The translations under genes were made by a program, and so were the position numbers. A stretch of DNA of 64,000 nucleotides from Gossypium raimondii (Eukaryota > Streptophyta > Magnoliopsida > Malvales > Malvaceae): positions 18,600,001 to 18,664,000 of the forward strand of contig NC_068569.1 of assembly GCF_025698545.1 (NCBI RefSeq), in the 5' to 3' direction. The notes beneath the pieces were generated by a model, which saw nothing but the letters and a program-made list of their open reading frames with translations, was not told where the DNA came from and ran no database searches. Shown here in pieces: positions 8,810-44,287 of this stretch (position 1 is the stretch's first letter; each line of letters starts with the position of its first letter).

Positions 8810-10350
8810 TGTTACCCATATCCCTATGTAACCACCTACGCCAGTCAGCGGCCACTATTCGATCTACCGCAGCCGGCGCTTCCTCTACCCAGTACATTGG
8901 CTCTGAGAACCGACGTCCTTCACCCGCAAGTGTCACGGACTTAGGATTTTTGCCTCACAATCTGTACGGCCTTAGGCAGTTTCTTACTCCCAAAAACGCC
9001 TAAGTCAACCTAACTCCCACAAGTTAAGGATTCAATCGAATTCCCCTTTTGAAAACAACACAAACGAAAGCACCTCGAAGATCAAATAGAGATGATCGAA
9101 GAACGAAATAAGAACAAGCCACAGAATATCAAGAACACAATAGAGAAATTAGTTTGAGTGAATACTCTCAAGAACTCTTATTACTCCTCAAACTCAAGTG
9201 ATTTACAATGAGGGGAGATGCCTCTATTTATAGTAGAGCCTTCCCAAATCCAACAGTACAGATCAAGTACATGAATGGCTAAGATTGAATGGTATCTACA
9301 AATCAAATCTCTAAGATTACAAAATTATATCTTCTAAGATTACATATCAAATCTACGATTGCATATCCTCGCAGATTATGTTTCCATATGTGACGAGAGC
9401 TTGTAGATGGGCCTTCAATCTCTTCAAGCAATGGGTTAGTCCGATCGGGCCAAATGACCTTCGTCCCACTTGATGGATCACACGAATGTGTCATGGTTGC
9501 GGGCTCCCATGCGCAACCCATGACATTCTCCCCCACCGAATCTAGTGACGTCCTTGTCGCGTCCTCCGCATGGTAACGATCCATCTTGTCTTGAAATTGC
9601 CATAAGGCTTCAGCGGGTTCCCAACTTGTCTCACTATCGGGGAATCCCTTCCATCGGACTATGTATTCATGTTGCGGTCGATAGTACTTCCGTCTGATCA
9701 CACGATCCCCCTCTATGTTTTCAACTTCTCTATCATAGGCGGCTTTTACCCCTATCGATGCTCGTTTGGACTTGTTTCATTTTGGGTCTTCTCCATCTTT
9801 ATGGAATGGCTTAAGCATATTCACATGGAACACTGGATAGAGTTTGAGTTTTTCAGGCAACTCAAGCTTGTAGGCCACCTTGCCTACCTTCTTCACAACT
9901 CGGAACGGCCCCTCATAACGTCGCACAAGTCCTTTATGCAACCCATTGTATCGCAAAATCAGGTGCAGTTTAGCAATGACAGAGTCACCAACCTGATATT
10001 GCACATCCCTTCGATTCTGATCCGCCCACTTCTTATTGCGCTTACTCGCCTTGTGAAGACAAGCTCTAGCCAAATCATTTTGCTCTTGCCAATCTCTCGC
10101 AAATCGATAGGCTGCTGGATTCGGTCCCGCATAACTAGTCGCAACAGCATTGGGTGTAAGTGGCTGTTGTCCTGTCACTATCTCGAACGGACTCTGGTTT
10201 GTCGCCCCACTTCTTTGCAAATTGTAAGAAAACTGAGCCACATCCAGCAACTTTGGCCAGTCCCTTTGTGTGGCACTCACATAATGCCGAAGATACATCT
10301 CCAACAACACATTCACTCGTTCAGTTTGCCCATCGGTTTGTGGATGCATG
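8810..10350 (-). mobile_element. Ty3/gypsy chromovirus 3' fragment: integrase end, chromodomain, 3' LTR
   Basis: A fossil piece on the minus strand. 10350-9780 encodes the end of integrase (HPQTDGQTERVNVLLEMYLR, then the GPY/F-type module YEGPFRVVKKVGKVAYKLEL). 9700-9560 encodes a chromodomain (YIVRWKGFPDSETSWEPAEAL), which marks the chromovirus branch. A purine-rich tract then precedes the LTR, which starts TGTCATGG at 9525 and appears to end GTAACA at 8810, about 716 bases. The 5' part of the element is absent; at 10350 it abuts a different LTR. Broken. Confidence 0.85.
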
Positions 10351-12639
10351 CTGGTTGAAAAAGGTGAAAGGACTAAACTAATAATTAAACCATAAAAAGT
10401 AACATGTGTGTGATAATTATAAATACATGTGTAATAAATATATGTATACATTTGTAATTAATATATGTACATACTTATTAATTAAGTAAAAGATATTTAT
10501 ATATTATATTATTATTAATTAAATAAAAGAAATAAAAGATAGAAAAGAGAATAGAAAGCGAATAGCAAAAGCAAAGGGGAGAAAGGAAAGAAAAGAAAAG
10601 GGAAGGAAAGAAAGAAAATTTGAGATTTCAAGGTTCAAGGTTTGATTGGTAAGCCAATTTAGTCCATTTTCTTATAATTTTTGAGTTTTGGAATCCTAGA
10701 ACAAAGTATTATTGGATTTATGTTGAAATTTTGGAAGTTATTAGATTTCTAGACATTGATTATGTTGAATAAATGAAAGAATTAAGGGTTAAATTAATTT
10801 AATTTCAAGTTAAAAGTTAGTAAAGGATTTAATTGTAAAATAAAGTGTAAGTTTTGAATAGTAGGGACTAAATTGAAAGAATCTCGAAATTAGGGATTTA
10901 TGATAAAAATTAGATAGCTAAGTTTAAGTTTAGTTGAAATTTGAGTAGAAATGAGGTAAAAATTGAGATGGAAAAATAAATGAATTTAGTTAGGGATTAA
11001 ATTAAAATTGAGATGAAAATAAAATAGAAATTCAAGTATTAGATGAAAAATTAATATTGTATTAATGATTATGAAAATTATCTTAATTTTTCGTAGCTAA
11101 TATCGCACCCGAGGCATCCACGAAGAAAGGAAGAGAAAAAGTGAACGAGGCGTAGACACAAGAATCGCGGTTTGTATTACTATAATTCAAATCTATTTAT
11201 TATTAATTGTTATATTTTAATTAAAATGCATGGTAAGTAAAATTAGGTAAGCAATTGAAATGATAATAGTGATTTTGATTGAATCAAATTGAATCGAATG
11301 AAGAAAATACGAGAATTTGAAATGTATATTGATTGAAAAATAATTAGTGATTTGAATTTGATTGGAAAATGAATTAAAAATATGAATTGAATAACAATGA
11401 ATTAAATTATGATTATGTGTGAATATGTGAATTGTGTATTGATTGAAAAGTGTTTGAAATGAATCGAAGTATATATTGATTAGAAAGTAGAAAGTGAATT
11501 TGAAATAGAAAAATGATTTGAATACCCTATTAACTAGTCGGGCTGAGTCAGATATAGTTGGCATGCCATAGGATTGGAAGTGTTCAGGGATACTTCGACC
11601 TTGAGTCGATGAGACACTGGTTGTCATACTGTTACTTCGGATAGAGTCGATGAGGTACTGGGTACCAACTTACTTCGGCTTGGCCGATGAGACACTGGGT
11701 GTCAACTATTGCTTTGAACTATCCGATGAGGCACTGGGTGCCATTCTGGTGTGTTTGGTTGGATCCGTGTATCCGCCAAGGTCCGAATCTTTTTAATAGG
11801 GGTAAATAATTGAAATGAGAAAATTTTGAATAAGTGTGATTGATTGAGCTATGGAAAGAAATGAGAAAGTGAAATTGTGAATTGATATGTGAATTGGAAA
11901 TCCAGATATGAGATTTGAAGATATGAACCCAAAGTTCATGATGTGATTAAGAATAAATTTTTGTTATATGATATTAGTGAGTACAAATTGCAATAGAGTT
12001 GATATTGAATATAGTGATAAATTGAATGAATTGTATATGAATTGAAATGAACTATTTGAATGAGATGTGAAAAATCCAATGGAATCGAGATAGTGAAATA
12101 AGGTCTGAGTACAATTAAATACAAGATTTGAAATATTGCTTATTGTTATTAATTATCAAGTTGATTTAAAGTATGAGATAATTAATGAATAATTGTAGAC
12201 ATAAATTAAATGTATATAATTTATCGATTAATGTTATTAATTTGAATTATGGTAATACCACTGAGTATTCACATACTTAGCGTACGGTTGTTTCCGTGCG
12301 CAGGTTAGTAGAAAGCTAGTGTCCGGTCCAGCATCCAGAGCAATCCCGACCTCAGAGAAATTTTAGTGATGTACCTTTGTTTTGATAATGTGGCATGTAC
12401 CTAGGTGATGTATAGGTTAAGTATAAGAGTTTTGTTATTACGGTTGTAGAATGATGTTTAAATTGGTTATAAGTATGAAATGGAACTAAAATGACATAAT
12501 TTATACAAATATGAAATGAAAATGATTAAAGTATGCTATGTCTGTTATTTATTTGTGAATTAGTTATAAGTTATCCGATATGTCTGGTAATGCTCCATAA
12601 CCCTGTTTCGGTGACGGTTTAGGGTTAGGGGGTGTTACA
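10351..12639 (+). mobile_element. LTR of the TGTAAC..GTTACA superfamily, copy A (5'-incomplete)
   Basis: About 2.3 kb of non-coding AT-rich DNA ending GGGGGTGTTACA. Its interior from about 10628 aligns with copy E (from 37039): GGTTCAA..TTGGTAAG, GTCATTTTCTT/GTCCATTTTCTT, TTGAGTTTT. The 3' end resembles copy B (GACGG..AGGGTTAGGGGGTG). The usual start is missing where it meets the gypsy fragment. It is flanked on the right by LINE sequence. A hairpin array is at 11600-11745. A relic. Confidence 0.7.
11600..11745 (+). repeat. Hairpin array of LTR copy A
   Basis: Four spaced units, each with CGATGAG just before a short stem-loop. Stems: GACAC-TGG-TTGTC (11613-11625, imperfect), GGTAC-TGG-GTACC (11654-11666), GACAC-TGG-GTGTC (11691-11703), GGCAC-TGG-GTGCC (11730-11742). 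The loop TGG is constant and two stem pairs vary in a compensatory way. Confidence 0.8.
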
Positions 12640-13146: not shown

Positions 13147-16100
13147 TGTAACAGCCTGATTTTTGACCCTAATCGAAACAGTGATTTCGGGACCACAAAT
13201 CCGAGTCTGAAAAAAATATTTTAGTATTATTTTCTGTGTCTATGATATTTTAATTTGATAGTGTGAAATTTTCGTAAATTAATTTGACTATTTGTGTGTT
13301 TAATTTGATAAAAGGACTTAATCGCGTAAAATGCAAAAGTGGCTAGTTAATTGTTAAAGTACTTTATTGCTATGGTTTTTCTAATGTGGGGTCCTTATGT
13401 TGATATTATACCAAATAAATTATAAGTGGACTATTATAGACAAATGTTAGTGGATTTTAAATGAATAAATAAAGGTTAAAATAGTAAATTAGTTATTTAT
13501 ATGTATTAAATAAAATAAACCATGAAAGTGGCCATGCATTTGGCTTTGTTTTGCCGAAAATTGAAGAACAAAGAACACCTTTGGTGTTTTAAACATTCGG
13601 CAGTTAGGAAGCTAAAATTTGGTATGTATTTTGCTTGGCTTTTGATAATTTTTACGTTTCTGAGATCGTTGCTTCGTATACTTTAAAACCCATGTCTTAA
13701 TTTTGTGAATTGTGGATAATTTTGAAATGTGCCATTGATGAATGCTTGAGTTTTATGATGTTAATAGGTGGAAAATAAATATATGTTGTTAGATTTTCAT
13801 GTTATAATTAGTAATTTTTGATAAAAATGTGTATTAAGGACTAAATTAAGAAAATATTAAATTGAGGGACTAGAATGTGAAATAAATGACATGCAAGGAC
13901 CTATATGAGATTAGGAGTATTCGACCATACTATATTAAAATTAATTTGGAATATTTTGTGTTTTGTGCAAAAAGGACTAAATTGTGAAAAATGTAAAATG
14001 TTAAGGGCAAAATTGTAATTTTCCTATTTATGTGAATTTAGGCTAAATTTGATGGAATAATGTTTAAATAAGTTTAATTTGAATTTATTTAGATCAAGAA
14101 TTAAAGAAGTCGAATTTGGATCGGGGAAAAACAAAAATAGTCGAATAGTCGAACGTTTTCGTCTATATCCGAGGTAAGTCTATTAGCTATTTAATGATAT
14201 TAAATTAGTATATATGTATGTATATCGATTGTAGTTATTGTTGAGCTTTAATTTGAAGTAATTTGATTGAATAAATTAGAATTATAAATGGTATATATAT
14301 GTGTATGAAGTGTTCAAATATATATATATATATGCTTATATAAATTTTTATTTAAGTTAAAGTAGGAATGCTATAAAAGCATATATATATATATATATAT
14401 ATAAATATATAATGTATTAATATTTATTTATGTATCTATATGAATATGTTCATTTAATTGATTGTTTGAAGGTTATATATATATACACATAAGATTCGAA
14501 TATGAGAAAATAAACACATGTATAAATTCTTGCTTTGATAAAAGGTACGTATTATACTCATGTACACATAGGTTTTCGAATATACATATATATATATATA
14601 TATATATGTAAAAAAAACTTTGGGTTTTGATTAGTGATATGTATATTGTAATTGTATAGGTAATTTTTTAAATAAGGTGATTATATGTGAGATGGAACAT
14701 TTATATATATAATTAAGTATTGATTATATTATAAGATATGAATGTTAAGAATGTATGTATAGTTTTGAGTATGTATGGATGTACATAAATATGTTTTCAT
14801 ATTGAGCTTAGATACAAATATATATATATATATATTATGCTCAATTGGTGTGTATACATAAGTACATGTAAATTATTTGTATTAAATTTAGTTATGTATA
14901 TTTATATATACATGAATAAGTTGTGAACTTAGGTAAAGGCAAGCATGTGTATATATAAATTCATATAGGTTCGAATATAAATAAACATACTTGTATGGGC
15001 TTTTAATTTTTATTTAAAAGGTATAAATGTTAAATATGTATACGGGAGTTTGAATATATATCTATATGTACATTTGTGTACAAGTTTTTAGATTGAATTA
15101 AAGACATAAAAGTTTATGTTTTTATAAATGAGGTTCGAATATATATTTATATGATTATAAGTTGTTAGTACTTGAATTGGATTGAAATATGATTTGCAAA
15201 CTCATTTATGTTTGAGCATGGACTACGGTGAATATGTGTTTGCTGTTAATAAATATTTGAGGAATTATTCTGTATATGAGAAATTGAGATTTTCAGGTTT
15301 TAAAACCTAGCAGGCTAAGTGCCGGTGATCTAAATCAGGTTATAAGCCTAGCAGGCTAAGTGCCGGTGAACTGAATCAGGCTATAAGCCTAGCAGGCTAA
15401 GTGCCGGTGAATTGAATCAGGCTATAAGCCTAGCAGGCTAAGTGCCGGTGATTTGAATCAGGCTATAAGCCTAGCAGGCTAAGTGCCGGTGATCTGAATC
15501 AGGCTATAAGCCTAGCAGGCTAAGTGCCGGTGAACTGGATTAGGCTATAAGCCTAGCAGGCTAAGTGCCAGTGAATCTGTTTAAATTAAGTGATTATTTA
15601 CATTAGGTATATATATTATTTTGGTTATATGTAATGGATAAATATACGAACATTTGTTTCTAAGTATTTGATGAGCATATAAACGTTCGAATCTTTGTGT
15701 TTAGTGAGTATATATATGTTGGTTATCATGAAATTGTTGGATATATATATGTGTATGCACTCGACATATGTGGATTATAGTAAACATATATATGTGCATT
15801 CGGCACATGTGGTTGATAAGTATAAGTATATACTTTTGGCATATGTATTTGAATAATATATATATATATATATATATATGCATTCGATGAAGTGCAAGCG
15901 ATAAGCACATATATGCATTTAGATATATGCAGTGATAAATACATATATACATTTAGTTATAATAAGTGTATATACATTTGGAGCTAATATTTGTTAAGCA
16001 TATATGTATATAAGCATTCGCTATTCATGTTACATTCGGTTTTAAGAGTTGATAATTAAGTATGCTTTTGACTATATGTCATAGTTAACATATATAGTAT

Positions 16101-16688
16101 TTGCGAATTCATTAAGTGTTTCAAGAAATTACATAATTATTTTATAATTTCTATTATGCTATAGACTTACTAAGCTATAAAATCTTACTTTGTTTGTTTA
16201 TGTCTTTCTGATTTTTAGATTTAATATCAAGCTTCAAGCTCGGGGATCGTCAGCAAGTTCATCACTCTATCTACTGTCTCGGTATTAAACTGTTTAAATT
16301 TTAACTTTGGCATGTACAGGCTAGATAAATGTTTTGGAAAGTCATACTTTGATATATTCTATATGAAATTAATAGCCATACGAAAATGGCTTATTTTCTT
16401 ATGGTTTAACGGGATCAAAATGTTATGTTTTGTTTTAAAAAAAAGTTAAAGTAGAATTTATAATTATACTTACTTAAAATTTGGCTAAGCTTAATATATT
16501 TCCATTTATATATATATACAATGCTTATATTTTGATTTAGAAATAGTTGATTTAAACATGTATTCAAACGAATTGCATATCAATGTTAAATTCTTGAATT
16601 CTATTGAACGTTTGTATGGAGGTGTGTTTTGTTCAGTAATGTCTCGTAACCCTAGTCCGGCGACGGATAAGGGTTAGGGGGTGTTACA
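13147..16688 (+). mobile_element. Solo LTR, copy B (TGTAAC..GTTACA superfamily)
   Basis: Starts TGTAACAGCC and ends GGGGGTGTTACA. It is flanked by a perfect 5-bp duplication AAATG (13142-13146 and 16689-16693). 3,542 bases, no coding capacity, no primer-binding site or second LTR inside, so a solo LTR is the best reading. It lies within the LINE. Contents: a conserved start (AGTGATTTCGGGACCACAAA), a GTAAGT motif at 14174, TA-rich microsatellites at 14310-14600, a 41-bp array at 15306-15580, and CTTACTAAGC at 16166. Relic. Confidence 0.85.
15306..15580 (+). repeat. 41-bp tandem array in LTR copy B
   Basis: Seven copies, starting at 15306 and then every 41 bases to 15552. Each copy contains CCTAGCAGGCTAAGTGCCGG followed by TGAxxTGAATCAGGCTATAAG. 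AGCCT-AGC-AGGCT within the unit can form a 5-bp stem. Copies are nearly identical, so the array is recent or homogenised. Confidence 0.95.
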
Positions 16689-26485: not shown

Positions 26486-27639
26486 TGTAACAACCCATTT
26501 TCAATGAAATCGGAATAGTGATTTCGAGATCACAAATCCGAGTAAGAAAGTAAAATTATTTTAATATTATTGCATGGTTTGCATTATGATGGGAATGATG
26601 TATGAAAATTTTGTTGAGAAAATTTTATCAATTACATGCTTAATTATAGAAAGGACCAAATTGCATAAAATGAAAAGTTGAATTCTAATAGCTAGAGGAT
26701 TAATTTGCTATGGAATTTAAAACTTGATATCTTTATATGGAAATTAGACCATTAAATGGAGTTAGTGGATAATTATAATGACTCATCAATGAAAATTCAA
26801 GAAAAAAGGATGAAATTGAAAAGTTGAAAAATTAAAAGATGATAAGTTAATTAAATGAATAAAATAATTTTATTTTCATCATTTTCTCCAAATTTTCTAT
26901 GGAAACCCTAGCTAAGAGAGGAAATTCAAGTAAGCTTAATTGGGTAAGTAATCTTGTTACTTTTTAATAATTTTTATATTTCGATATCGTAATAATTTAA
27001 TCTAGCTATTTTAGGGATTAATTTGCAAAGTTATCAAAGTATTAAAACTTTTCATGGATCAATATGCATGAATTATGAAATTTATGATAAAAATGAAAGG
27101 TTGTTGATAGATAAACAACTTTTCCTTTTCATGAAATTGTGATTTAGGGACTAAACTGAAAAGATGTAAAATTCATGAAAATTTTTTATTTTTGTGAAAT
27201 ACATGGGCTGTAAATGTTATATGAAAATTTCAGTTAGGCTTGGAATAAGAATTAAATTGCATAAATTTCATTTTCCGAGCCTAGGGACGAAATTGGAATT
27301 AATCAAAAGTATAGAGGCAAAATGTTACTTTTGCCTAAAATGTGAACTGGATTGAATTGAATATGAAATGTGTTAAATTTATGTTAAATTCACTTATATA
27401 GATCCGGAAAGATCAAATAAGGAGTTAGATCGAGGAAAAGAAAAACTGTCGGATTAGTAGATTTTCGTATACAAGCAAGTGTCAAGGTAAGTTTGTGTAA
27501 CTAAATTATGTATATTTATATGTTTGAATTGAATGTTGTATATGTGAATTGTATAATTGTTATATGTATGAAATTTATTTCATATTCGGCAAAACTCGAT
27601 AAATGATAAGTCTCGTTTGACTAAATGGAATTCGATGGA

Positions 27640-28090
27640 TATAGGATTTTCCTGAAATGTTTGTGGTCCTACATATGTTGCGGACACACCATATCTCTTA
27701 TGAGCGTCTCGTTATAAGCCATCTCGAGCTTCCTGTTATATAGTTCCTGCGAGTATCCTGATCGATATTGATTCTGCATGTGTTACGGACATACCGCAGC
27801 TCTTTGTGAGCGTCCTGTTATATGATCGGTATTGATCCTGCATATATTGTGGATATACCGCAACTCTTTATGAGCGTTCCGATATATGGCTCTTCATGAG
27901 CTTCCCCATATGACTCGCTTGAACTTCCTGATATAAGGCTATCCGGAGCTTCTTGATAATAGCTCTTCGGAGTTATCCGTTAAGCTCACATGAGCTTTCT
28001 GTTTTAAACTCTAATGAGTTTCCTGTTATAGCCCGAATAAGCTTCATGTTACATGGCTCACGTGAGCTTCCTGTTACATTACTCACACAA
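27640..28090 (+). repeat. Hairpin array of LTR copy C
   Basis: Degenerate units of about 30-45 bases ending in CTTCCTGTTA-like sequence, many with a palindrome: GCTCA-CA-TGAGC (27984-27995), AAACTC-TAAT-GAGTTT (28006-28021), GCTCA-CG-TGAGC (28056-28067). GCTC/GAGC and ACTC/GAGT differ by a compensatory pair. The array is interrupted by the CACTA element and continues to about 39610. Confidence 0.75.
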
Positions 28091-28556
28091 GCTCACTACA
28101 CCAAAACAGGCTTTTAGCGGCACTTTAAGGAAATCGCCACTAAAGATTGAGCATTAGCAAACGCCGCTAAAAATGAGCATTAACGGCATTTTTCGAAAAA
28201 ACGCCACCAAAAACCTAAGCCCAACGGCGTCGTTTTCTGATCTTTCGAGGCTTTAGCGGCGTTTCTGAAAAAGCGCCGCTAATGCTCAGGGCTTTAGCAA
28301 CGTTTTTTGAAAAAGCGTCGCTAATGCTTAGGGTTTTAGTGGCATTTTTGAAAAAGCGCCGCTAAAAACATTTTATCTTAATTGGTTTATTTATATTAAT
28401 TATTTAAATATTCAATTTATTTCTAATTGAATATTTAAAATCTTCAGAAAAAAATAATGACACGTAAAAATAATTTGAAATAAAACACATGGAAAAATTA
28501 AAATACTATTATTCAAAATAATTTTAAAGTTTTTTGGGGTACATGATTCTTGATTG

Positions 28557-29235
28557 TTTTTAATTTATATATTAAAAAATTTCTTATACAATCGTAAAAG
28601 AGATAGTATTAATTTTAAAATATTGAATTAATTATCACTATAGTTTAGGGTTTTTGGTTTAGGGTATATGATTAATTTAAGATTTAAGGCCGGTTTAGGA
28701 GTTACTATTTTAAGGTTTAGGGAGTATGGATTTAGGGATTATGGTTTAAGGGTTGGGATTTAAGGTTTATGGGTTAAGGGTTAGACGTTATGGGGTTAAG
28801 AGTTAGGGATTTAGGGTTTATGGATTCACGGGGCGGGTTATGGTTTTGGATTTAGATTAAATAGTTTTTTTAATTTATATTTTAAATATGTTATTATATA
28901 ATTGTAAAAGAGATAGTATTAATTTTAAAATATTGAATTAATTATGATTATAGTTTATGGTTTATGGTTTATGGTATATGGTGTAGGGTTTAAGGTTTAA
29001 GAGTTACTATTTTAAATTTTATGGATTATGGGTTTAGGGATTACGGTTTATGGTTTATTGTTTAAGGGTTGGGATTTAAGGTTTAGGGGCTAGGGGTTTA
29101 GGGTTTATGTTTTATGATTCAAGGTTTAAAGGATAGGGGTTAGGGGTGTAGGGTTTAGATTAATTAGTGTTTTTTAATTTATATATTAAATAATTTCTTA
29201 TATAATTGTAAAAGATATAATATTAATTTTAATAT
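28557..29235 (+). repeat. ~307-bp tandem repeat with telomere-like TTTAGGG stretches
   Basis: The block TTTTTTAATTTATAT..GTAAAAGAGATAGTATTAA recurs at about 28557, 28864 and 29169. Between copies lie long runs of degenerate TTTAGGG/TTTATGG/TTAAGGG heptads (28640-28850, 28950-29160). The heptads resemble the plant telomere repeat but are too irregular to be an interstitial telomere. Confidence 0.8.
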
Positions 29236-29808
29236 TATAGTTTAAATTATTTATGAGATAATAGATAAACTTTATATATATTAAATGGTTTAGGATTTAA
29301 GGATTAGTTGAGATTTATTAAATGATGAAATTTTATTAAAATATATGGTATTTATTTTGAGGGTACTTAGTTTTTTTTATAAAAATATAATTTATAAAAA
29401 ATAGTAATAATAAATGTTTTATAAAATCAGGTAATTAATAATTTTTAGTAGACAAAATAAAATATTTTTAGCAAAGTAAAACGGGGTTGTTTTGTTCAAA
29501 ATGAAATAATTTTTTGCGGCGTAAGATAAACAATTTTTTAAAAAAACACCACAAAAGTCATTTTATTTAAAAAAAATGGCGCTGTTTTCCCCAAATTTCC
29601 CCGCCTGAAATCTCCAAAAGGATCTCCGCTACTAAAGCAGATAAGGTTTTTGGAATTCCTTTTGTGCTTTCTCTTTGTCAAAAAAGACTTCTGTTCTGTT
29701 CGGTATTTGCAGGGAAAAAAAAAGATAATGTGTTTGGTATTTTTGTTTCCGTTATAAATTTTTTTAAGGAAAGGGAGATGAAGAAAAATAAGAAAAGGGG
29801 GAAGAAAA

Positions 29809-30084
29809 ATGCTGCAACTATGGGTAATTTATCCCGACTTTACCCTACTTTTTAAACCATGGTATGAGATAGGCTGGTCTCCCAATATTTCCTTAATCAA
29901 AGGGAGGAAAACCCTAATTTTGTCTCTCCCAAGAGATGAAAGGAAGGGAAAAATGGTGTTTTACTTCAAAGCCCGGGCAGAAGCTAGCGATTACAATATG
30001 GCTTCATCGAAGATATCTAGTAAATTCTTATTTGAATTATTTTTCCAGATACATTGAAAAATTTTGAAATTTTGCCATTGTTGC
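29809..30084 (+). other. Unidentified open stretch inside the CACTA element
   Basis: An open frame at 29809-30057 (IYPDFTLLFKPWYEIGWSPN, ASSKISSKFLFELFFQ) precedes the LTR D insertion at 30085, and 32892-33081 is open on the other side (DFDKKTEIETRLFDKDRDFQ, NRLFQWKPFREFYS). No family is recognised. This may be transposon-encoded or captured; coding status is unproven. Confidence 0.3.
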
Positions 30085-32886
30085 TGTAATGACCTGAATT
30101 TTCAGTGATGTCGGAATAGTGATTCGAGATCACTAAATCTGACAAATGAGTAGAAAATATTATTAATTTAGTGAGAATAAGTAAATGTGAAGTTGGGAAA
30201 ATTTTTGAAATAGTGAATAGTGTAATAGGAATAAATATTAAAATAATTAAAATTGAAAACGAGGTATCGAGACCTCAAAGATTTTAAACCGAGCCATAAG
30301 TATTTTTAGAAATATTTTTAGAGTGTCATTGAGTTGGTATTAAAGTTTCGTTAGAAAATTTTAACGTTTGGATAGTCAATTAACTAAAAAGGACTAAATT
30401 GAAAATAGTGTAAAATTTGTTAAATTGTGATTAAATAGCTTAAGTGATTAAAAAGGAGGGATTTAAAAGGCAATTAGGCCCAAACTATATGGGCTGGACG
30501 GTTGGGCAAGAAATATCTAGAAAAGTGATGTAATAAGGGTAAAATTGGAAATTTTGTAAAAGTTAACAAATAGAAATCTCAATTAAAAGAGTTTCTAGGC
30601 AATTCTTCATAGTTATCAGCCAAAAAACGGCATTGAAGAGTCCCTCCAAGCTGGTTTTTCATATATTTTAATCATGTAAGTTTAATTCTTAATTATTTCT
30701 TCTAATTTTTGTGGTTTTGATACTTTTACAATTAGGTCCAACTAATTGTTTCATTAGTTATTAATCTTATGGCTGATTTTGAAAGTTACCATTGATGAGT
30801 ACTGAATTTTTATGATGAGTAAGCATGGAATTAAAGCTTTGATTTTGTTATATGATGATTCTATTAAAGTAATTTTGATAGAAATTGATTTTAGGGACCT
30901 AATTGTGAAAAAGTTGGGAATTAGGATTTGGTGTTGCGGTTTTGAATATTAAAGGCTATTTAGTAGTCTAAAATAGTTGGAAAAGGTGTTGATTGAGAAA
31001 AATTAGATCAATTGAGAGGTTAATTGAGTAGGGACCAAATTGTAAAAACTATAAAGTTTAGGGTAAAAGTGTAATTTCGAAAATTTAAGGGCATAAATTG
31101 TGAAATGGATTAGAAGAGAATTATATGCTGACGAATGAATAAATTTGTATTTTAGATCGAGAACCCGAAGCAAGCCGAGGAAAAGAAAAAGTAGTTGATT
31201 GGTCCCTGAACTTTTACAAATTCTGTAAATCGACCTAGGTAAGTTCATATGGCTGAAATTTAATGATTAAATGTTAATTTCATGAATTATATAATGTATG
31301 ATGAAATGTATTTAGTGTTGAAAAGAGAGTAAAATAAAAATGCGAAAATCGAATAAATGATCAAATTAAGCGGAACGCCGGATTTGAGTACTTCTGATCA
31401 AGAGATAAAGTGATAAGTGGTAGCTTTAGCTACACTTATCTGATCAAGTGAAAAGTGATAAGTGCTAGATAAGTGTTATACTTATCTGATCAAGTGAAAA
31501 AGTGATAAGTGTTATACTTATCTGATAAAGTGATAAAGTGATAAGTGGTAGCTTAGCTACACTTATCTGATCAGGGACAAATGATAAGTGATCATACGTA
31601 AGACCATATGACAAAGTGAAAGTGAAGTACTCAATTTTTCGTAATCGTTCCTTAATTTTGATCACGGATGGTAAGTGACAAATGGGCCCAAAGGAATTAT
31701 GGTAAAAGAATAAGTAGTAGTGAGTTTATACCAAAGAATTCACCAAAGATTGTGGTTGACAGGTAAACTTAGTAATGGTGTATATTGTATAAGTGTACAA
31801 ATGTTTGGTAAGATTTATGTTTTATGCCTATGAACTTACTAAGCTTTTCTATAAGCTTACATGTGTGTGTTTATTGTTTTGTAGATTAACGTATTTATAC
31901 ATTCGAGGATCGATCTACATCGAGAATCACACTATCCGGATATACTCCGTAGATTTTGTTAAATAACTTTTGGATTTATATGGCATGTATAGGAATTGAA
32001 GTAAAAAGTAATAGAATGAATGACTAAGTATGCAAAGTAAATTTTGAATGTTATGGTTGTGTTAGATATCGAAATATATACATGTTTTTAGTTTGAAATG
32101 GTTAATTGGTTGAACTTCATTAGTATTTAAATGAAGTAGATGAAATCTGGAATTGGTTGTAATTTGAAATTTGCAGGAAGGTTAGACAATTATAAAGGGG
32201 TTATATTGAATTTTTTAAAAATTTCAATGGAATAGTTTTGGACAGCAGCATTGATGTAACTTTGAAAAATCACTAAAAATAGTGGAAATAGAATTAGAAG
32301 TTGAGTGAGATATGAAATTAAATCTGAATGAGTCTACTTTCATATGAAAGAAGTGGAGTAAGCAAAAGAATTATATACTTTTAGATATTTGAATTTTAGT
32401 GAAACAGGGCAAGAATGTTTTGAAGTCCCTGTTCTAACTTTAGAAATTCATTAAAATTGTACAGAAGGAATTATGAGTTATAATTTATATGAATAGATTC
32501 CTTAATGAGACTATTTTCAGTAGAAATAAGTGTAAGCACCATATGAAGTCTGTAATAAGAGATAATTAAATTTTAGTGACGAGTGGTCAGGATAGTCGAT
32601 CAGTGAAATAGGGGAGACTTCAACTAATAAACTGTACTAATTGGCTAAACCAAAAATTCTGAAAAATTTATGGTGAATAGATATATGAGTCTAGTTTCAG
32701 GGAAAATTTACGGATCTAAATTTCGATTTTTGTAGTTTGAATTATAATTATTTTAGTGACTGCTATGCAGGTGGACAACTTTATTATGAATGATGAAAGT
32801 AAATTTTTATGCCCCGAACTTTTAAGTTAAGTCAAGTAACGCCTCATGCTCGACTCCGGCAACGGTATTGGGTAAGGGGTGTTACA
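30085..32886 (+). mobile_element. Solo LTR, copy D
   Basis: Starts TGTAATGACCTG and ends AAGGGGTGTTACA, flanked by a perfect 5-bp duplication GTTGC (30080-30084 and 32887-32891). 2,802 bases, non-coding. Shared features: a start block with CGGAATAGTGATTCGAGATC, GTAAGT at 31239, a hairpin array at about 31400-31590, and CTTACTAAGC at 31835. It is inserted in the CACTA element and therefore younger than it. Confidence 0.87.
31400..31590 (+). repeat. Hairpin array of LTR copy D
   Basis: Three to four units built on GATAAGT..ACTTATC inverted arms (for example GATAAGT-GTTAT-ACTTATC near 31505). Two units have a longer inner stem, GTAGC-TTTA-GCTAC and GTAGC-TTA-GCTAC. Units are separated by TGATCAAGTGAAAA. 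Confidence 0.8.
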
Positions 32887-33527
32887 GTTGCTATAGATTT
32901 CGATAAGAAAACAGAGATTGAAACTAGGTTGTTCGATAAAGACAGAGATTTTCAAGCTGGTTTAGGTTTTCTTTGTTTCCCTTATTGTTCAACAGAGCTT
33001 GAAGATCATAACTGGGAAGATCAGACAATACGTTATAATCGATTGTTCCAGTGGAAACCATTTCGGGAATTTTATAGTTGAAGGAAGAATAATCCGAAGT
33101 TGATGAAAGATTATAAGACACTTTTTAAACCAAAATGAACCAAGTTTTGATTGAAATTAGAACTCAAAAATGCAATAAAAAGACCAAAGACAAATTGGTG
33201 TCCTTTTTTTTTTGGTTATTAAGTTATAAAACAAACAAATTTTCTTTTGGGTGTTTGGTTGATGAGAAAATATAAGAAAATTTGGTAAAAGATTTTTGAT
33301 GAGAAAAAAATTATAAATTTATAATTGTTAACTAGTAGAAAAAAAAATTATAATTGTTAACTAGTAGATTGAGCTAGGTAATGGTGGTGGTGCTAATTTG
33401 CCTGCAATCAAAGAGAAGTATGGTCAGTACATGGTGAGTAGGTGCTCCACCTTTACGGTGCAAACATGTTTACAACATTGCTACATAATTAACTTAAGTT
33501 TTTAATAAGAGCTTGATTTGAATTTCA

Positions 33528-33655
33528 GACCTTGCTTTAGGTGACGATGAGTGGGAATGGGCAAGTTCCATTACTGGCTATTTCAAGCTATTTGTTGAAA
33601 CCATTAATGTCTTCTCTACTAACAAAAGTCCTACTGCAAATGTACATTTTTTTCT
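33528..33655 (+). pseudogene. hAT transposase fragment (RICESLEEPER/ZBED type)
   Basis: Reads DDEWEWASSITGYFKLFVET then INVFSTNKSPTAN, the conserved block upstream of the hAT catalytic region in plant ZBED/RICESLEEPER proteins. Only this exon-sized piece is present, inside the CACTA element, with an AG just before it. No BED finger or dimerisation domain follows. Confidence 0.75.
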
Positions 33656-33779
33656 GAAATCTATCATGTTTACATACTGTTGATTGAATTGTGCAAGAGC
33701 CCTAATACTTTTCTTAGTTCATTGGCAGGGAAGAGGAAAACAAAGTTCTATAAATACTGGAGCAATGCAATTTAGCTTT

Positions 33780-34060
33780 GCCAGTATCATCTATATCTTA
33801 CATCCCCCAACTGTCGAAGCTCACTGAATTGATATGCACACAAGATTGGTTGCAGATGCAATCAGATGGTATGTATGTGCATTATCTTTGATTTTTTCAC
33901 ACAATATCAATTTTGGTTCATTATATATCACTAAAAATATGTCGTTGGTATTAATGTATTAGATCCTAGTCCATCGTCAAGCATTTATGCTATACCCATT
34001 CCTATGGCTCTGAAGAACACTGTTTCTATGTTGTGGATTTCATTAGTGTCCTTATTTTGA
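33780..34060 (+). pseudogene. Two-exon fragment of an unidentified gene, intron retained
   Basis: 33780-33868 reads SSISYIPQLSKLTELICTQD then WLQMQSD and meets a GTATGT donor. After an intron the frame resumes at 33963 from a TTAG acceptor as DPSPSSSIYAIPIPMALKNT then VSMLWISLVS. The codon split across the junction is consistent (G/AT = Asp). I do not recognise the gene. A retained intron points to capture at the DNA level, as in Pack-type transposons, not by retroposition. Confidence 0.5.
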
Positions 34061-35716
34061 AGGCTATTTCATGCAAGGTACGTACATGGATATGTGGTAA
34101 GCCCATAAGATGATGTTTGACCGCATAAGAATTTAGTCTTGGTCTCAAATTATAAATTGGATGAATAACTATTGTAATGTTCTTATGTCAATATGGGCAA
34201 ATAGCTAATTGCTTCTTAGTATTTTGATTTGTTACTATACATATTAGGAATAATAAACAATCAACCCTTTGATATGATACAATAGTTATTATAGTAGTAC
34301 TTAACAAAAATTTGGTTCTCATTCTTCACTTAACAAGTCCAGTGGCACATACATATGTAAACTAGGAAATTGAAACAAGAAAGAAACGCAAAGCCAAAGC
34401 ACATTGATACTTTTGAATGATAGTTATAAATGAATAATATGCCTGACTTGGCATTTATAAAACTCACATGCTTGAAGGATAGAACAGAAATTGCTGTTAG
34501 AATTGGATTGTCAGCTTTCAAGATTCAGTAAAAAAGACATCATTTGGACACTTGGAAGAATTCATTGGTTTCATTGCTGTAATCTCTCTTATTCAATATC
34601 TAATTCATTTCCATGGTTAAGATAGCTAAGTTGTCAATTTCCTCGAGTATTAATTTTTGCATTCATGTTATTTCCCATTCATATTTAACTTGTTAATATC
34701 AATTTTTGTTTTAATGCACTATAATTATTTTCCCAATTCTGCAGGGTACATGAAGATTAGATAACCAGGAATGTAGCAGATGTAGTTTGCATGTTTGCAC
34801 GGTAAGTAGATGAATTGATTCAATCTCTATCATCGGCAAAAGATATACTTCCCCCTTCATATAACTTTTATGATCTTTCAACTATTTATCTATGTTTTTA
34901 TATGGGATGATGAATATATCACATGCTTCAAAAAAGGATAAATGTGGTGAAAAATATCGATTCACTATAAAATTGATTTGAGAACTGGCGTTTTCTTCAT
35001 TTGTATGTTGTTTCTATGTTGGAATGGATGAAGGGTGGGACGCTTGGCCTCCATCCTATAGTAAAAGTATCTGTTTTTTACATTTATTTATTAGCAAACA
35101 ACAGTGATATTATGCTTTATTTTGTTGTTTTCTTGTCAGTTACATTTACTGCTGTTAGTAAAATAGGATTTTCTTCTTAGGATCTTAGTTTCTTCACTTG
35201 TATTAGACTCAACAATGGCTTGCATTGCATTGGTGTTGATTTTACCTAAATTTCGAGGTTTGTAATTTTTAATTTTTATTAATTATTTACGTTTTCTCAC
35301 TTTTATTAATTTTTATTATTATTTAAGCTTCCTTTATTTGCCTTCTTTTATCATTTTTTCTTGTTGTTTTTAGCTTCGAAGATCTAGTCTGCCAATCTGA
35401 ACTTGGTTTTTGGCCTTCTTCCGTCTATGCTTAATCAGCAATTTATCCCATGACACATTGTGCAAACTGTGTTTTACTTCATTCTTTTATATATTTTACA
35501 TTCATACAAGAGTAATTTTGTCTTTTACATTTCAAATAAAACCATTTTATTTTATTTTATACATGTTGATATTTGAACTCATGACATTAGCATATATAAA
35601 ATCGTAGGTTTACCACTACAAAAAATGTTTCACCTCACTAAATTAGTGTCAATTGTACATTGAATTGGTTAGAGAAATAACTTACATTCTTACAATAATT
35701 CTTTTGTCTTTTTTCA

Positions 35717-35861
35717 TTTTAAATTATAAATGTTGAGATTTGAAACCATACCATTAACATATATAAAATCTCAATTACTAATATTATTACACAATCAATG
35801 CTTCATTTTAAATTATAAATGTTGAGATTTGAAACCATACCACTAACATATATAAAACCAT
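35717..35861 (+). repeat. Direct repeat in the CACTA interior
   Basis: About 50 bases (TTTTAAATTATAAATGTTGA, then GATTTGAAACCATACCA) at 35717 recur at about 35809, 92 bases on, with one or two changes; a weaker relative lies near 35560. Confidence 0.75.
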
Positions 35862-36011
35862 GAACCAGATGACAAAGGGTTTCTCAAGGGTAGAAGAATC
35901 ACTTAATGACTGATGTGCCTGATGCCCGAAAATAGTTTCTAGCATATGTTGAAAAAGCAAAGACTACCGGATGCTTGGATTCATCATTTCATTATGGCAA
36001 TTCCATAAACG

Positions 36012-36370
36012 GTAAAGAGAATGGGGCCTGCCAATAATAACGAGTAAGTTTTCTCATCCTTCGTTGTACCCCATTTTATATAACATTAGATATACTAAAA
36101 TGGTTATGATGTTGGGATTTGAATCCCAGATGCCACGTCTTGAAGGTGTTTGCATGAGCCATAGGTTGAATGCAAATTTTGATTCTAATTTATTAATCCC
36201 GATCATTACACTCTTATTAGAGCTGACACGCTCAATTGTTTTTACTCTTAAAATTAATCACTCGTAGGTTTACAGGGAAGTTGAGTTCCTTCTAGCTGTG
36301 CTCAATTGTTTTGTTTTTGCCATTACAGCTGCTGTAGTTATGTAAAGAGAATGGGGCCTGCCAATAATAA
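36012..36370 (+). repeat. 29-bp direct repeat ending at LTR E
   Basis: TAAAGAGAATGGGGCCTGCC followed by AATAATAA occurs at about 36012 and again at about 36342, the second copy ending exactly at the left end of LTR E (36371). The last five bases serve as the target-site duplication of LTR E. Confidence 0.85.
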
Positions 36371-38742
36371 TGTAATGACCCATTTTCAGTAAATCGGAAT
36401 AGTGGTTTCGTAATCACAAATCCGAGCTAGAAAGAAAATTTATTTTAATATTGTGGTATGGTCTATATTATGATAGGAAGGTTGCATGAAAATTTTGATA
36501 ATAAAACTTCATTGATTATATGGTAAAATTTATTTAAATAGATTAAATAAAAAAAATACATTATCGGGACTTTGTTCCGTAAATCGATTTGTAAATATTT
36601 ATTATAAATATTTACTAAGTTAGTTGTGTGTCTAATTATGTTTTGACTAGGAGAATTTGATGTAATTGGAAGTAATTAGGAAAAGGGATTAGATTGAAAT
36701 AAGTGTGAAAGTTTAATTATAAATTAAAGAAAGTTAAAAAGACCAAATAGGCAATTATGCCTTTTTCAAAAATTGAGGCGGCATAACAAATGAAATATCT
36801 AAGATATTTTTAATTTAAGTTATATATATTTTATATTATGATATTTAATTAATAAGTAAGATATTATATTATATTATTATATTATTATATTATTATTACA
36901 TATATAAAACAAAAGAAAAGAAATGAAAAGAAAGAAACAGAATAGAATTCAAAACGGAACAGGGGAGAAACAGGGGAGAAACAGGGAGAAAGAAAAAAGA
37001 AAAGTAAATAAGAAAATTAGGGTTTTAAGGTTCAATTTCAAATTGGTAAGTCAAATTAAGTCATTTTCTTGAAATTTTGAGTTTTATGATTCTAGATTAA
37101 AATATTAGTAGGTATATGTTGAAATTTGAAAGTTAGTAGAATTTTTTATGTAGTTTATATTGAATTAGTGGATGAATTAGAGATTGAATTGATGGAAATT
37201 CAAACTAGAATTGGGAAAAAGATTAAATTGAGAAATAAGTTATAAGTTTAATGTAAAAGTGTAAGAAATTCAAATTAAGGTTTATTAGTGAAAATTTGAG
37301 AGTTAAGTCAAGTTGTAAGTAGAATTTAAGTAAAAATAAGGTATAGATTGTGATAGAAATAGAAATAATTTTAGTTATGAATTAAATTGAAATATTAGCT
37401 AAGGTAAGAAATTATGAAATTTTTATATCATATATGTTTATTCTTATTAAATCATATAGGAAAGTTATTTGATTGTTTTTCTAATATATAAATGTTATGT
37501 GTTTTATATGAAATTGAAGAGAAAGAAAAGAAAGGAAATGACCTAATTGAAGAAAAAGGAAAAGAGAAGGCTAATGAGTGAAGGAAGATATCATCTCAAC
37601 CTTTTTGTTGTAAGTACTACAAGGTTATTTTTTAATTTATTTTATTTAAATGCCTATATTATAGTATAGAATTATTTAGAAATAAAATAAAATAAAGTAA
37701 AATAAAAGATTATGGAACTATGAAATTTGTAAAGAAAATTATAGATGGAAAGTATATAGTGGTATATTGATTGAACATTAAGTAATTATTGTGACAAAAG
37801 TATATATACGTGAAAATGGTGTGATAATTGTGAATTGTGAAATGTGCACTAAATTGTAATGATGGAGAAATGAGAAATCTTTTTCGAAATAATTCTATAA
37901 AGTATTTAATTGAATGAGATTCAGTTTTAATGCCCAAGTAGATAGAATTTAGAACTACCAGGATATTAGTGGCATGCCATTAAGGAACTTTAGCGCGCTC
38001 TCTGATTATTAGCACGTTAGTGCTCTCTGACTACAAGCACGTTGGTGCTCTCTGATTTAGCACGTCAGTGCTCTCTGTTTAGCACATCTGTGCTCTCTGT
38101 ATAGCACTTTAGTGCTCTCTGTTCATTAGTGCAAACCAATGCACCTCTGTATTTGTTCCGTATATCCGGTGTGTTCTATAAAATCTATTTTGGGCTAAGA
38201 TTATGATTTGTGGATAAAAGCGAATCATTACAATGCTAAGGTAAGTTTTACGAAGCTTATACGTACGTAAATACGTAATAACAGAAAGAATTTGGCATAT
38301 TTTATTTATATTTATTTATCTGTTTATTTCTTGTAGTGCTTACTAAGCCTTCATCGGCTTAACGCGTAGGTACAGTTTGTCTCGAAGAGGTAAAGTCAGG
38401 ATAGAAGATCTCTCATCTCATCACATCCTCAAGAGCTTCAAAAGTAGGTACCATATTTTGAATTAAAATGGCATGTACATAGACAGTCAGTTATGCTTCC
38501 ATGTGTTAGGAACTAAAATGTAAACTCTTGGACTTCTATCTATTTTTAAGTACTTTACGTATTTTGGTATATATATGAAATGAATTAGTAAAACTATATG
38601 TATGTTTGCAAATATGGTTGGTAAGTGAAAATGCTATGTATAAATGTTTTAATTCAACAATATCTAGCTATAACCGTTTGGCACCAAATGTAATAGCCTT
38701 ATACTGGGTCAGTACGATTAGACCAGGTATAGGGTTGTTACA
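36371..38742 (+). mobile_element. Solo LTR, copy E
   Basis: Starts TGTAATGACCC and ends ATAGGGTTGTTACA, flanked by a perfect 5-bp duplication AATAA (36366-36370 and 38743-38747). 2,372 bases, non-coding. It has the shared start (AATCGGAATAGTGGTTTCG), GTAAGT at 37610, a hairpin array at 38011-38144, and CTTACTAAGC at 38339. Its middle aligns with copy A. It is inserted in the CACTA element. Confidence 0.87.
38011..38144 (+). repeat. Hairpin array of LTR copy E
   Basis: Five AGCAC-N4-GTGCT stem-loops at 38011, 38036, 38059, 38081 and 38103, separated by CTCTG-type linkers, then GTGCA-AACCAA-TGCAC at 38129-38144. The stem is constant while the four loop bases vary (GTTA, GTTG, GTCA, ATCT, TTTA). 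Confidence 0.9.
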
Positions 38743-40489
38743 AATAATGAGCATGTAGGCACTAAATCTGCAGTTCAAATTCGAAGCCATGCTCAAAAGT
38801 TTTTCTCTAAGGCTCATTGCTTTGAGTTCATTACAAGATTTCCTTGATTAAGTAAATGTATTATATCTTTTATTAACAAGATTTACTTGATTAAGAAAAT
38901 GCATTGTATTTTTTATTACCTTGCAATGTATATAGTCATAGGCAGGTTCAAATAGTCAGTCTGTTTATCATATGTATTATTTATTTTAGTTTTGATTCTA
39001 AATTTTATTTTTACTTTAATATTTACGAAAACTTAAGTTCTAACTTTTGGATTTTAATTGTGTTATTAATTTATTATTTTAAATTCTAAAACTAAATTCA
39101 TTAATTTTTATATTTAGTTTTAAAGTTAAAATTTTCATAGAAAATTTAATTTAAATCATATTTTTTATTTATCCTTAAAAGTATATTTAAAGTTCAAATT
39201 TTAAAAATAAAACATAATATAATAATTATCATAAAAATAAATATTATTTGATTAAAATAATTTTTTTAAATGTTATGTTTTTAGCGGCGTTTTTACAAGA
39301 AGCGTCGCTAAAGGTCATGGTCTTTAGCGGCGTTTGTGAAAAAAGCGGCGCTAAAGGTTGACAAAAGCGCCGTTAAAGGTCATGATCTTTAGCGGCGTTT
39401 GTGATAAAAGCGTCGCTAAAGGTCATGGTCTTTAGCAGCGTTTTTCATATAAACGCCGCTATAGCGGCACTTTTTGCGGCGCTTTCACTTTTAGTGGCGC
39501 TTAACAACGCCGCTAAAGGCCTAAAAAAAGCCGCTAAAAGTCTATTTTGCTGTGGTGGCTTCCTGTTACATGGCTCAGAAAAGTGCTTTCTGATTACGTG
39601 CTCTAATGAGTACCTCCGGATATGAATTGACGAATTATAGTTTTGTACACTTCGAGTGTACTACATGTGTATTCATCGATATTTTAAATAAATTCAATAG
39701 ACAAAGTTCCGACATGGACTAAACTGAACTTGAGATGATTTGTTATGAAAATGTACATGTTTTATGGGAATATGATATGGAAAGTATATATATGAAAGTT
39801 ATTACATGATGAGCTCATTCATGTTTTTTGACAATTGTGTGAATTATAATGACTAACATGTTGATGAAATTGGGTGTTTAGGCTAATTGCCAAATTTCTT
39901 TGGGTGAAATTTTGGATGCTTACCTTTAATGCAAATGAAGGGTAAGTTAATTTTCCATTATACGAACTTACTAAGCATTAATGCTTACTTGTTTTATTTT
40001 CTCTATTTTATAGTACACGGAAGCTCGTAAAGATTGGAAGCAGGTCAGAGCAAGATCACACTATCCTTCAACTCATTTTAGTATAAATAGTGAAATTACT
40101 TTTGGTATAATGGCATGTATAAGCTAAGTTAGGTAAAATATTGGTATATACATGTTTTGGTTGTAAATAGCCATTGAAACGACTTGTAATGGTCATGTTT
40201 TGATATATAGATATATATGGTATTATCATGTTTGAGGTATGAATTTGATTATGCATATATGCATTTGGTATCTAGTTAAGTATAAGTTTGGAAGGACTTA
40301 ATAATAAATTATCAATTGGGAAGTCCTAGGACACATTAATTGTATGTGTAAAATGTCAAGTTTAAGACTTGGGTTTGGCTTGGTTTAAATGTTTTGAATT
40401 GGTTGGTGAACATGTTAAAATGTTGATGTAGGTGGAAGACAAGTTTGGGTGAGAAATAAGGCTTGAAAATGACCTTATTTTGTCCACAT

Positions 40490-40910
40490 GGGTGGAGACA
40501 CGGGCATGTTCCTCAACCGTGTGTCACACACAGCCATGCACACGGGCGTGTGGTTTGACCATGTGTCCCTTACATCTTAAAATTTGAGAAATAGAATACT
40601 CAGGTAGTTTCACACGGGCAAAGACACGGGCGTATGTCTCATTCGTATGTGTCACACGACCTGACACACGGGTGTGTGACTTGGCCGTGTGAATCTTGCA
40701 CCTTAATTATGCAAGTCAGTATGCTCACACCACCTAGCACACGGGCGTGTGGCTCGGCCGTGTGACTAAGTCAGTATACAACTTAAATTGAGCACGGGCT
40801 GGGACACAACCATGTGCCTCACATCGAATGCCCACACGGCCTGGGACACGGGCATGTCACTTAGCCATATGAGCCACACGGACGTGTGTCCCCTGTACTT
40901 AAAGAAAATT
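40490..40910 (+). repeat. CACGGGCGTGTG palindrome array near the end of LTR C
   Basis: Many dispersed copies of CACACGGGCGTGTG and GGCCGTGTG, all imperfect palindromes, in the last 650 bases of LTR C. Arrays of this type are familiar from cotton LTR elements. Confidence 0.8.
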
Positions 40911-41131
40911 TTGAAATTTCGCAAAAAATTCTCTAAGTTCCCGATTTAGTACCGACTTGTTTCTAATACATAAACTGGGCCTCGAAGGTCCATTTAAGAG
41001 ACAATATGATTGAATATGTTTAGTTTCAAATATGTATAGTAAATGATATGAATTAACTATATTTGATCTGTAAACTCTGGTAATACTCTATAACCCTGTT
41101 TTGATAATAAATACGAGTTAAGGGTGTTACA

Positions 41132-42567: not shown

Positions 42568-42979
42568 CCGATCCGAAGTGAGGCATCATACTTATTAACT
42601 TGTGAACTAATACATACCAATTGAACTAGGCAAACAAACCAGTTGAATTACTTTTTTTTTATGTTTTTAATGATTCATTTAATTGAATTGTATAAATCAG
42701 TGATCTAACCAATTTGATCACCAGTCTGATATGATATTCTGATTCTAAAAATGATATGATATTTTGATTTGTTGATAAAATGTCATTATGATCTTGGCAA
42801 TCCAGTACTAAGTTGATTTTGCTTATAAAAGGTCATTCTGAGTTTGATACGTGACGATAATCGTGCTGAAATGATTATTAATAATTTTGATATTGAAATT
42901 GATGTAATGAAATAATATATTGATATTATTAATATTTTAACTTAATGTATTTGTTATATCTGACTAGTTTAATAGTTTT

Positions 42980-44287
42980 TTACTTTTGAATTCAAATTAT
43001 GTTAGTACTACCGAGTATTCAATACTCAGCGTATGATTGTATCTACTTTTGTGCGTAGACTTGACTTAGGTTCTTGGTGTGTTCGTGGTCCTGTTAGCAT
43101 CCAAGCAATCGATACTCAGCTTAGCCATCAATTATAATGTTTTCTTATGTTTGCTTATTAGTGGGATGTACCTAAGTCATTAGAAAGTGTTTTAAAGTTT
43201 TTATGTCATTTTGATTTATAAATATGTTAAAGTTGTATGCTTTGGTGACCGGTTGAATGATTTTGGTTCCATTTATCTTTTGATATATATAGATAGATAT
43301 ATAAATAGAAAGATATGTTGGAGTAACGTTGGTTGAATGGCTAGTTGTGTACAAATTAGCAGTTAGTTTAATTAAGTTAGTTGTGTTGGAATAAATGTCC
43401 TTACCTTTAGGCGTTGAATGCAATTATACAAGTTAAGTATGTGTGCATTAGGTTGATTTATGCTAAAATGGTTGTTGAGTTGGTACTGGTTGAATTTCTA
43501 ATTGGTTTAAATTGTATTTAGTTAGTTCAACTATTTATTAACTAGTATTGAAATGAGATATATGAAATGCCATGATTCTAATTTATTGATTATGTTTTTA
43601 CAAGTCAACTGGATTTGTTTTAGCTTAACATAACTTTATGATTATTTAGGAAATGTTTTGGCATCGTTTGCTTGTTGGAACGTTTGTACTTTTGACATTT
43701 TGGTAGGATGGTATCGAGACACTTTGAACAAAAATGATCAATTCATGCATTTTTGGGTAAATGTCTTGAGACAATAATAGCTAGCTCTCGAGGCATGAAC
43801 ACCGTGGTCTCGAGATGAGTAAACATCGAACCTAAATTAGTTTTTCTATGTTCCAAGTCTCAAGACAAGGCTATTGTCTCAAGACATCATAACATCGAAA
43901 AGCAAAACAGGGAAGGCTTGTCTTGAGATTTAAGGAGTCTTGTTTCGAGACATGCTAATATCAAAGCTAAAATTCTAAAAATAAAATGTAGTCTGTCTTG
44001 AGACATGGAGATACTTGTCTCGAGATATCATGCTGAAATTTGATCAAAAGAGCTTGGATTCGAATTCTAACTCCATATTTGACCTCGTTTAACCCTAAAA
44101 TACCGTGTATGAGATCATTTATCATTGTAATGTCATGTTAATGTGTTTAATTGTGATTGTGTGGTGATGATTTTGAATTAATGACAAATTGTTTGGATTA
44201 TTAATTTGAAATATTTTAATTGCCTCAACAATATGATGTGACGTCACGCATTAAGACCCGATGACCGGATTAGTGTGGAGTGTAACA
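42980..44287 (+). mobile_element. LTR relic, copy G (3' part)
   Basis: Ends GGATTAGTGTGGAGTGTAACA at 44287. ACTACCGAGTATTCA..TACTCAGCGTA near 43010 matches ACCACTGAGTATTCA..CTTAGCGTA of copy A (about 12260), and GTGGGATGTACCTAAG matches GTGGCATGTACCTAGG. 43750-44040 carries about eight TGTCTCGAGACA-like palindromes. The left boundary is uncertain. Broken. Confidence 0.6.

Follow-up and report, generated by a model that had tools for sequence, protein, structure and literature searches.

Palindromic repeat arrays in the middle part of an LTR and of four neighbouring LTRs in plant nuclear DNA

The locus, its LTRs and their arrays

The 64-kb stretch of DNA analysed here, called the window throughout, comes from a plant nuclear genome. 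From about position 1431 the sequence can be read as a histone H3-like gene, and the recognised domains of the window are 14-3-3, JmjC and an integrase C-terminal domain. The array under study lies in LTR A (10365-12639, + strand), whose 5' end is missing, whose start is approximate and which ends in TGTTACA. A retrotransposon integrase C-terminal fragment (9777-10361, - strand; Pfam SH3_Tf2-1 and Integrase_p58_C) adjoins its broken 5' side. A search of viral contigs gave no relative of this integrase-like fragment; 19 residues with 95% identity to it were found at 3113-3169 of contig L005 (short, labelled as a Planctomyces MAG), a match that is probably plant contamination. Four further LTRs are present, all on the + strand. 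LTRs B (36371-38742), C (13147-16688) and E (30085-32886) are solo and have exact 5-base target-site duplications (AATAA, AAATG and GTTGC, respectively). LTR D is split into a first part (26486-28093) and a second part (39558-41131) by a CACTA-like element (28094-39557, with GCT on both sides, as read from the sequence), and its end duplication TTTAT has one difference from TTAAT at its start. The CACTA-like element, within which the solo LTRs E and B sit, carries GCGCCGCTAAA-type inverted terminal repeats, and its insertion point falls within the palindrome array of LTR D. LTR A (10422-11103) shows 69% similarity to LTR B (36801-37487), and a further stretch, F (42874-43235), shows 63% with LTR A 12142-12465, a match that covers the part after the array only and is therefore uninformative on the array. 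The TGTAAC...GTTACA ends are of a kind that, we presume, resembles Ty3-type chromoviruses.

Array A (11607-11742, + strand) consists of four units of CGATGA plus a hairpin, starting at 11607, 11648, 11685 and 11724. It exemplifies a palindromic repeat array situated mid-LTR, and comparable arrays are found in the four neighbouring LTRs, at a comparable position and with differing letters. Array B (37990-38145, +) holds five GCAC-N4-GTGC hairpins, which are all such hairpins of the window; the arms of these inner five are constant and their loops variable, whereas the unit at each end has different arms (AGCG/CGCT and GTGCA-N6-TGCAC) that are symmetric as well. Array C (15306-15580, +) is a 41-bp tandem repeat with the palindrome AGCCT-N3-AGGCT at six places. 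Array D is made of CTC-N4-GAG units with co-varying outer pairs, in a main part (27680-28093, +) and, past the inserted element, an end part with one further unit (39558-39620, +; core at 39601). Array E (31410-31580, +) comprises GATAAGTG...CTTATC hairpins, with two longer and two shorter inner stems. The sequences of the arrays are unrelated, being GRYAC-TGG-GTRYC in A, AGCAC-N4-GTGCT in B, AGCCT-AGC-AGGCT in C, RCTC-N4-GAGY in D and GATAAGTG...CTTATC in E. Arrays B-E were spotted by eye and their borders set before testing, and the tests were not blind. For these tests, LTR D was divided at 28095 and 39553, which differ by two to five bases from its borders with the inserted element.

As a fraction of the LTR, the arrays occupy 0.55-0.61 in A (computed without its missing 5' end), 0.68-0.75 in B, 0.61-0.69 in C and 0.47-0.53 in E, and array D lies about 1.2 kb from the start of its LTR and 1.5 kb from the end. 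The word GGCATGTA occurs five times in the window (1.1 expected, both strands), once per LTR and always after the array, and CTTACTAAG four times (0.67 expected), after the array in B, C, D and E, LTR A having ACTTAGC where the others have this word. Because these two words follow the arrays, the latter are positionally comparable though their letters differ. The palindrome GGCATGCC stands directly before array A (11560-11567), and its second and last copy in the window directly before array B (37971), two being found against 0.23 expected. The G+C content is 0.33-0.50 in the arrays against 0.25-0.32 in the remainder of their LTRs.

After CTTAC, TAAG...CTTA arms could form a further hairpin in B (38339-38361), D (39967-39987), E (31835-31859) and C (16166-16187), with inner pairs CC/GG in B, CA/TG in D, CTT/AAG in E and none in C; this is a minor instance of matched change, seen at a single aligned site. 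The corresponding place in LTR A (12280-12301) reads GCGTACGG-TTGTTT-CCGTGCGC, with one T-G pair. The splice-donor-like word GGTAAGT is found before the array in A (11232), C (14173), D (27486) and E (31238) and is common in the window (15 matches on both strands against 5.9 expected); in LTR B, the nearest word before the array is GTAAGTA at 37610 rather than the longer GGTAAGT. An intron reading, with GGTAAGT before the arrays and CTTACTAAG plus TAG after them, was considered. An intron inside an LTR would be lost upon reverse transcription.

Palindrome excess and matched arm changes

Short-range hairpin potential was scanned with a span of 24 and no G-U pairs, in 150-base windows with 100 dinucleotide shuffles each. 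Among 1277 windows, the best one of array E came first and that of B third, followed by C at rank 17, A at 21 and D at 25, with the end part of array D at 61. Within the top ten, the CACTA-like terminal repeat ranked 6, and array-free windows held ranks 2, 4, 8, 9 and 10. A plain dinucleotide shuffle of the arrays gave P values of 0.006 for A, 0.005 for C and 0.001 for each of B, D and E. Since a tandem repeat multiplies any palindrome within it, a null that retains the tandem structure was also used, in which an identical random order of positions is applied to all units; P was then 0.0005 for B, D and E, and 0.020 and 0.023 for A and C, respectively, the last two being modest values. As a control, 25 further tandem repeats from the window, mostly shorter than the arrays and thus with less power, were submitted to the dinucleotide test only; two reached P 0.01 and three reached 0.05, and one of the two at P 0.01 (15786-15868) falls in LTR C. 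Microsatellites, the rows of the five arrays, the CACTA-like terminal repeats, rows 36820-36991 and some overlapping rows were left out of this control. Whole-window folding energy is too blunt for these arrays, with E and D among the 45 best of 852 windows and A, B and C outside them.

Array A had been described in the original prediction as three perfect stem-loops with a TGG loop, and these are present, with 5-bp stems, as units 2 (GGTAC-TGG-GTACC, 11654-11666, +), 3 (GACAC-TGG-GTGTC, 11691-11703, +) and 4 (GGCAC-TGG-GTGCC, 11730-11742, +). To these an imperfect fourth must be added, namely unit 1 (GACAC-TGG-TTGTC, 11613-11625, +), with 4 bp and a C.T mismatch, which also lies within the interval 11600-11745 that had been given for the three. 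The shared lead-in, proposed as CGATGAG, is indeed common to the units, but its final G is the first base of the stem and the true lead-in is CGATGA. The proposal that two stem pairs vary with both sides changing together holds for pairs 2 and 3: pair 2 is split evenly between A-T and G-C, pair 3 is T-A in a single unit and C-G in the other three, and both two-sided differences are transitions, while pair 5 is unpaired in one unit. In total, 19 of 20 cells are paired (95%), and two of the five pairs have changes on both sides (n=4 units). Pairing falls to 10-55% when the partner is shifted by 1-3 columns, a control that favours structure seen in the very sequences tested.

Of 500 shuffles of the arms of array A, 21 reached the observed pairing and 99 the count of pairs with two-sided change. 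An event-level simulation, which scattered five column changes, their unit patterns as observed, at random over a perfect ancestor, reached both measures with P 0.0007, 0.0011 and 0.0048 at transition fractions of 0.5, 0.67 and 1.0, respectively. The arm co-variation of array A looks real, on n=4 units and two events in an array that was picked after being seen. The hairpin blocks are also better conserved than the linkers, the 19-base blocks having 85% identity between units (ungapped, mean of six comparisons) against 57-70% (gapped) for the three linkers, for which shuffles of two linkers give 52%. An exact-pattern scan for copies of array A gave no match in a collection of genome contigs and four matches in viral contigs, none of them LTR-like and three of them representing one related coding-like context.

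For array D, six CTC-N4-GAG cores were picked on the inner three pairs alone. Their outer pairs are standard in 14 of 18 cases (11 Watson-Crick and 3 G-U), one of the six units having none, and all three outer pairs have changed on both sides (n=6 units). This outer pairing has P 0.0007 against composition and 0.04 under a swap of arms among the units; of 500 shuffles, 5 attained the covariation score, 39 the pairing percentage and 62 the count of pairs with two-sided change. A shift of the partner by +1 leaves two pairs, which are still paired in 75% of 12 cells, and the four other CTC-N4-GAG cores of the window have 5 of 12 outer pairs. That symmetry is kept in array A and, with other letters, in B, D and E is supported.

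It can be hypothesised that mutation alone accounts for these features, and this is the strongest rival to a regulatory role and a serious one, although we consider it rather unlikely. Stems would then be made and repaired by tandem duplication together with template switching at small palindromes, whether in DNA replication or in reverse transcription, and the arrays would be functionless and lie where the LTR tolerates them. Unit 2 of array A differs at two adjacent pairs at once, as a single copying event would give, and the array sequences are entirely different between LTRs. As far as the accessible text of PMC8794818 goes, template switching is described there as fixing stems with the loop kept, which gives matched arm changes; the paired changes on both arms and the kept loop are common to those hairpins and to the ones reported here, whereas the former are described for RNA genes (rRNA, microRNA) and not for LTR arrays, and the same text terms the evidence for maintenance of short stems circumstantial. 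By itself, mutation leaves unexplained that five of five LTRs have an array in their middle part, when three of the 25 other repeats reach P 0.05, and it equally leaves unexplained the drift of the array A linkers beside the conservation of the blocks.

RNA folding and DNA symmetry

The original prediction further proposed that folding, in RNA or single-stranded DNA, had been kept. Of this proposal the symmetry stands, while folding of the sense RNA finds no support, the fold z of array A on the + strand being -0.79. With G-U pairs allowed and a span of 30, the z values on the + and - strands are -0.79 and -1.98 for A, -2.25 and -3.34 for B, -1.10 and -2.07 for C, -2.05 and -2.89 for D, and -4.10 and -6.24 for E, so that the + strand is the worse in all five main arrays; the sense strands of B, D and E fold better than shuffles, yet the antisense strands fold better still. 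The 73-base piece D2 alone favours the + strand (z -2.60 against -0.39). The + strand is G- and T-rich and its shuffles therefore fold well, so the fold result is an absence of support rather than a disproof. A conserved fold of the sense RNA would admit G-U pairs on the sense strand alone and would be expected to set that strand apart from its shuffles; the strand comparison thus favours symmetry at the DNA level, and RNA folding is treated as a rival.

This RNA rival, in which the sense transcript would fold and be bound, packaged or otherwise controlled via its hairpins, is in our view improbable. It would be in keeping with the fixed lead-in and loop of array A, beside which the stem letters vary in pairs, and with array D, in which the three non-Watson-Crick standard outer pairs are all G-U on the + strand and none A-C, although the number of these G-U pairs is small. 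It is opposed by the sense scores, which are worse than the antisense ones in the five main arrays and near the shuffles in A, and by the predicted best fold of array A, which contains only unit 2 and misses three of the four hairpins. Rfam likewise gave no match, either for the whole window at the gathering threshold or for 11500-11850 at E up to 5. A hammerhead-like core, to which the GATGAG lead-in could have belonged, was rejected; we take GATGAG plus GAAA to be the elements of such a core, and the GAAA partner is absent after the stem and Rfam is without a match.

Known LTR palindromes and the possible role of the arrays

The original prediction knew of no named function for such arrays, which is not quite right, since palindromic repeated motifs of Sirevirus LTRs have been described (PMC2829016) and are discussed as cis-regulatory (PMC10760457) in the accessible parts of these sources. 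The palindromic repeated motif of Sirevirus (Ty1/copia) LTRs is the closest known kind (PMC2829016). In what is available of that paper, the motif is palindromic in all 13 elements tabulated and differs between elements, 12 of the 13 motifs have a CGG-CCG core, 117 of 127 LTR copies are in the upper half of the LTR, and the clusters begin 200-400 bp into the LTR and lie shortly before a conserved promoter region. The arrays reported here resemble this motif in that several copies of a short palindrome are grouped within one portion of a long plant LTR, and in that sequence differs between elements while dyad symmetry is kept. The number of copies is 3-14 per 3' LTR in Sireviruses and, by hand count, 4-7 per array here (A 4, B 7, C six places, D six cores, E 4); a palindromic motif repeated within the LTR is found in all of arrays A-E, and these are counts within LTRs, which alone remain here, whereas the Sirevirus threshold is at least 8 copies per whole element in the accessible text.

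None of the arrays here has CGG-CCG as its repeated stem, and CGG-N0-7-CCG was found in the arrays with 150 bases on either side once in A, once in E and not in B or C. The arrays start about 1.2-2.2 kb into the LTR (1619 bases in B, 2159 in C, 1194 in D and 1325 in E), unlike the Sirevirus clusters at 200-400 bp. They accordingly fall outside the Sirevirus motif, being without its CGG-CCG core and much deeper in the LTR. The TATCAGAGC primer site of Sireviruses is absent from the 64-kb window. Sirevirus clusters are covered by a CpG island; here, the observed/expected ratio of CpG, with flanks, is 0.82 in A, 0.89 in B, 0.55 in C and 0.91 in E, which concerns the ratio alone, array G+C being only 0.33-0.50. 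In Sireviruses the cluster directly precedes a conserved TATA region; in these AT-rich LTRs, TATA-like words are frequent throughout.

In the portions of the wider literature that could be accessed, the cis-regulatory regions of several TE families are described as arrays of sometimes palindromic repeats (PMC10760457) and LTR elements as having a weak preference for palindromic target sites (PMC6911290), and PMC12786077 makes no mention of palindromes or hairpins. When the letters of array A were searched for in the literature, the matches listed look by their titles like chance primer matches, and among the top-ranked matches listed from one open literature library such arrays in these LTRs are undescribed.

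It is also conceivable, though very improbable, that the hairpins are a source of small RNAs and feed the plant silencing machinery, a role already proposed for the palindromes of maize Sireviruses. In its favour, small RNAs are in excess over the palindrome clusters of Sirevirus LTRs, and the arrays share with those hotspots the presence of palindrome clusters with hairpin potential inside the LTR; the maize palindromes are longer, with CACCGGAC arms, and small-RNA data exist there, and maize Ty3 elements are generally without an obvious peak of miRNA-like structure, as the accessible text of PMC10760457 has it. The stems reported here are about 5-7 bp in arrays A-D and reach at most 12 bp, bulge included, in E. 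Usual Dicer substrates are far longer than stems of 5-7 bp. Chance, in the form of a tandem repeat whose unit happened to contain a short palindrome, is the least probable reading of all: it would suit array A alone, with its P of 0.02 under the tandem-preserving null after selection by the reader, and it is countered by arrays in five of five LTRs and by matched arm changes in A and D.

We tentatively propose, at somewhat less than even confidence, that the arrays are fast-turnover palindromic cis-regulatory arrays which control transcription of the element and whose symmetry is kept by selection. Their copies would be made by head-to-tail duplication, and dyad symmetry would be kept in the form of double-stranded palindromes, which may control transcription either as repeated binding sites or as sites prone to structure. 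In A and D, the paired changes of the arms may then have arisen from selection on symmetry together with copying from arm to arm, and folding of the sense RNA would not be required. No single factor can be named, because the five arrays share no motif. Against this proposal, the lead-in CGATGA is conserved on one side only and would not be needed by a symmetric dimer site; the high-scoring array-free windows, the modest P values of A and C, and the weaker controls of array D also count against it.

A bolder form of the cis-regulatory proposal, which we regard as doubtful, is that the long LTRs of one plant retrotransposon group have a fixed slot that is obliged to hold an array of short palindromes while its letters are free. 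In such a slot the array would be replaced repeatedly between families, and the arms would drift together within an array. If this is true, the slot would be a cis element defined by structure only and free of sequence, outside the CGG-CCG pattern of Sireviruses. Should the five-of-five pattern extend genome-wide, palindrome arrays of LTRs would not be peculiar to Sireviruses, and the many copies would then allow selection and arm-to-arm copying to be tested directly against each other, a question that bears on the reading of compensatory changes as proof of RNA structure.
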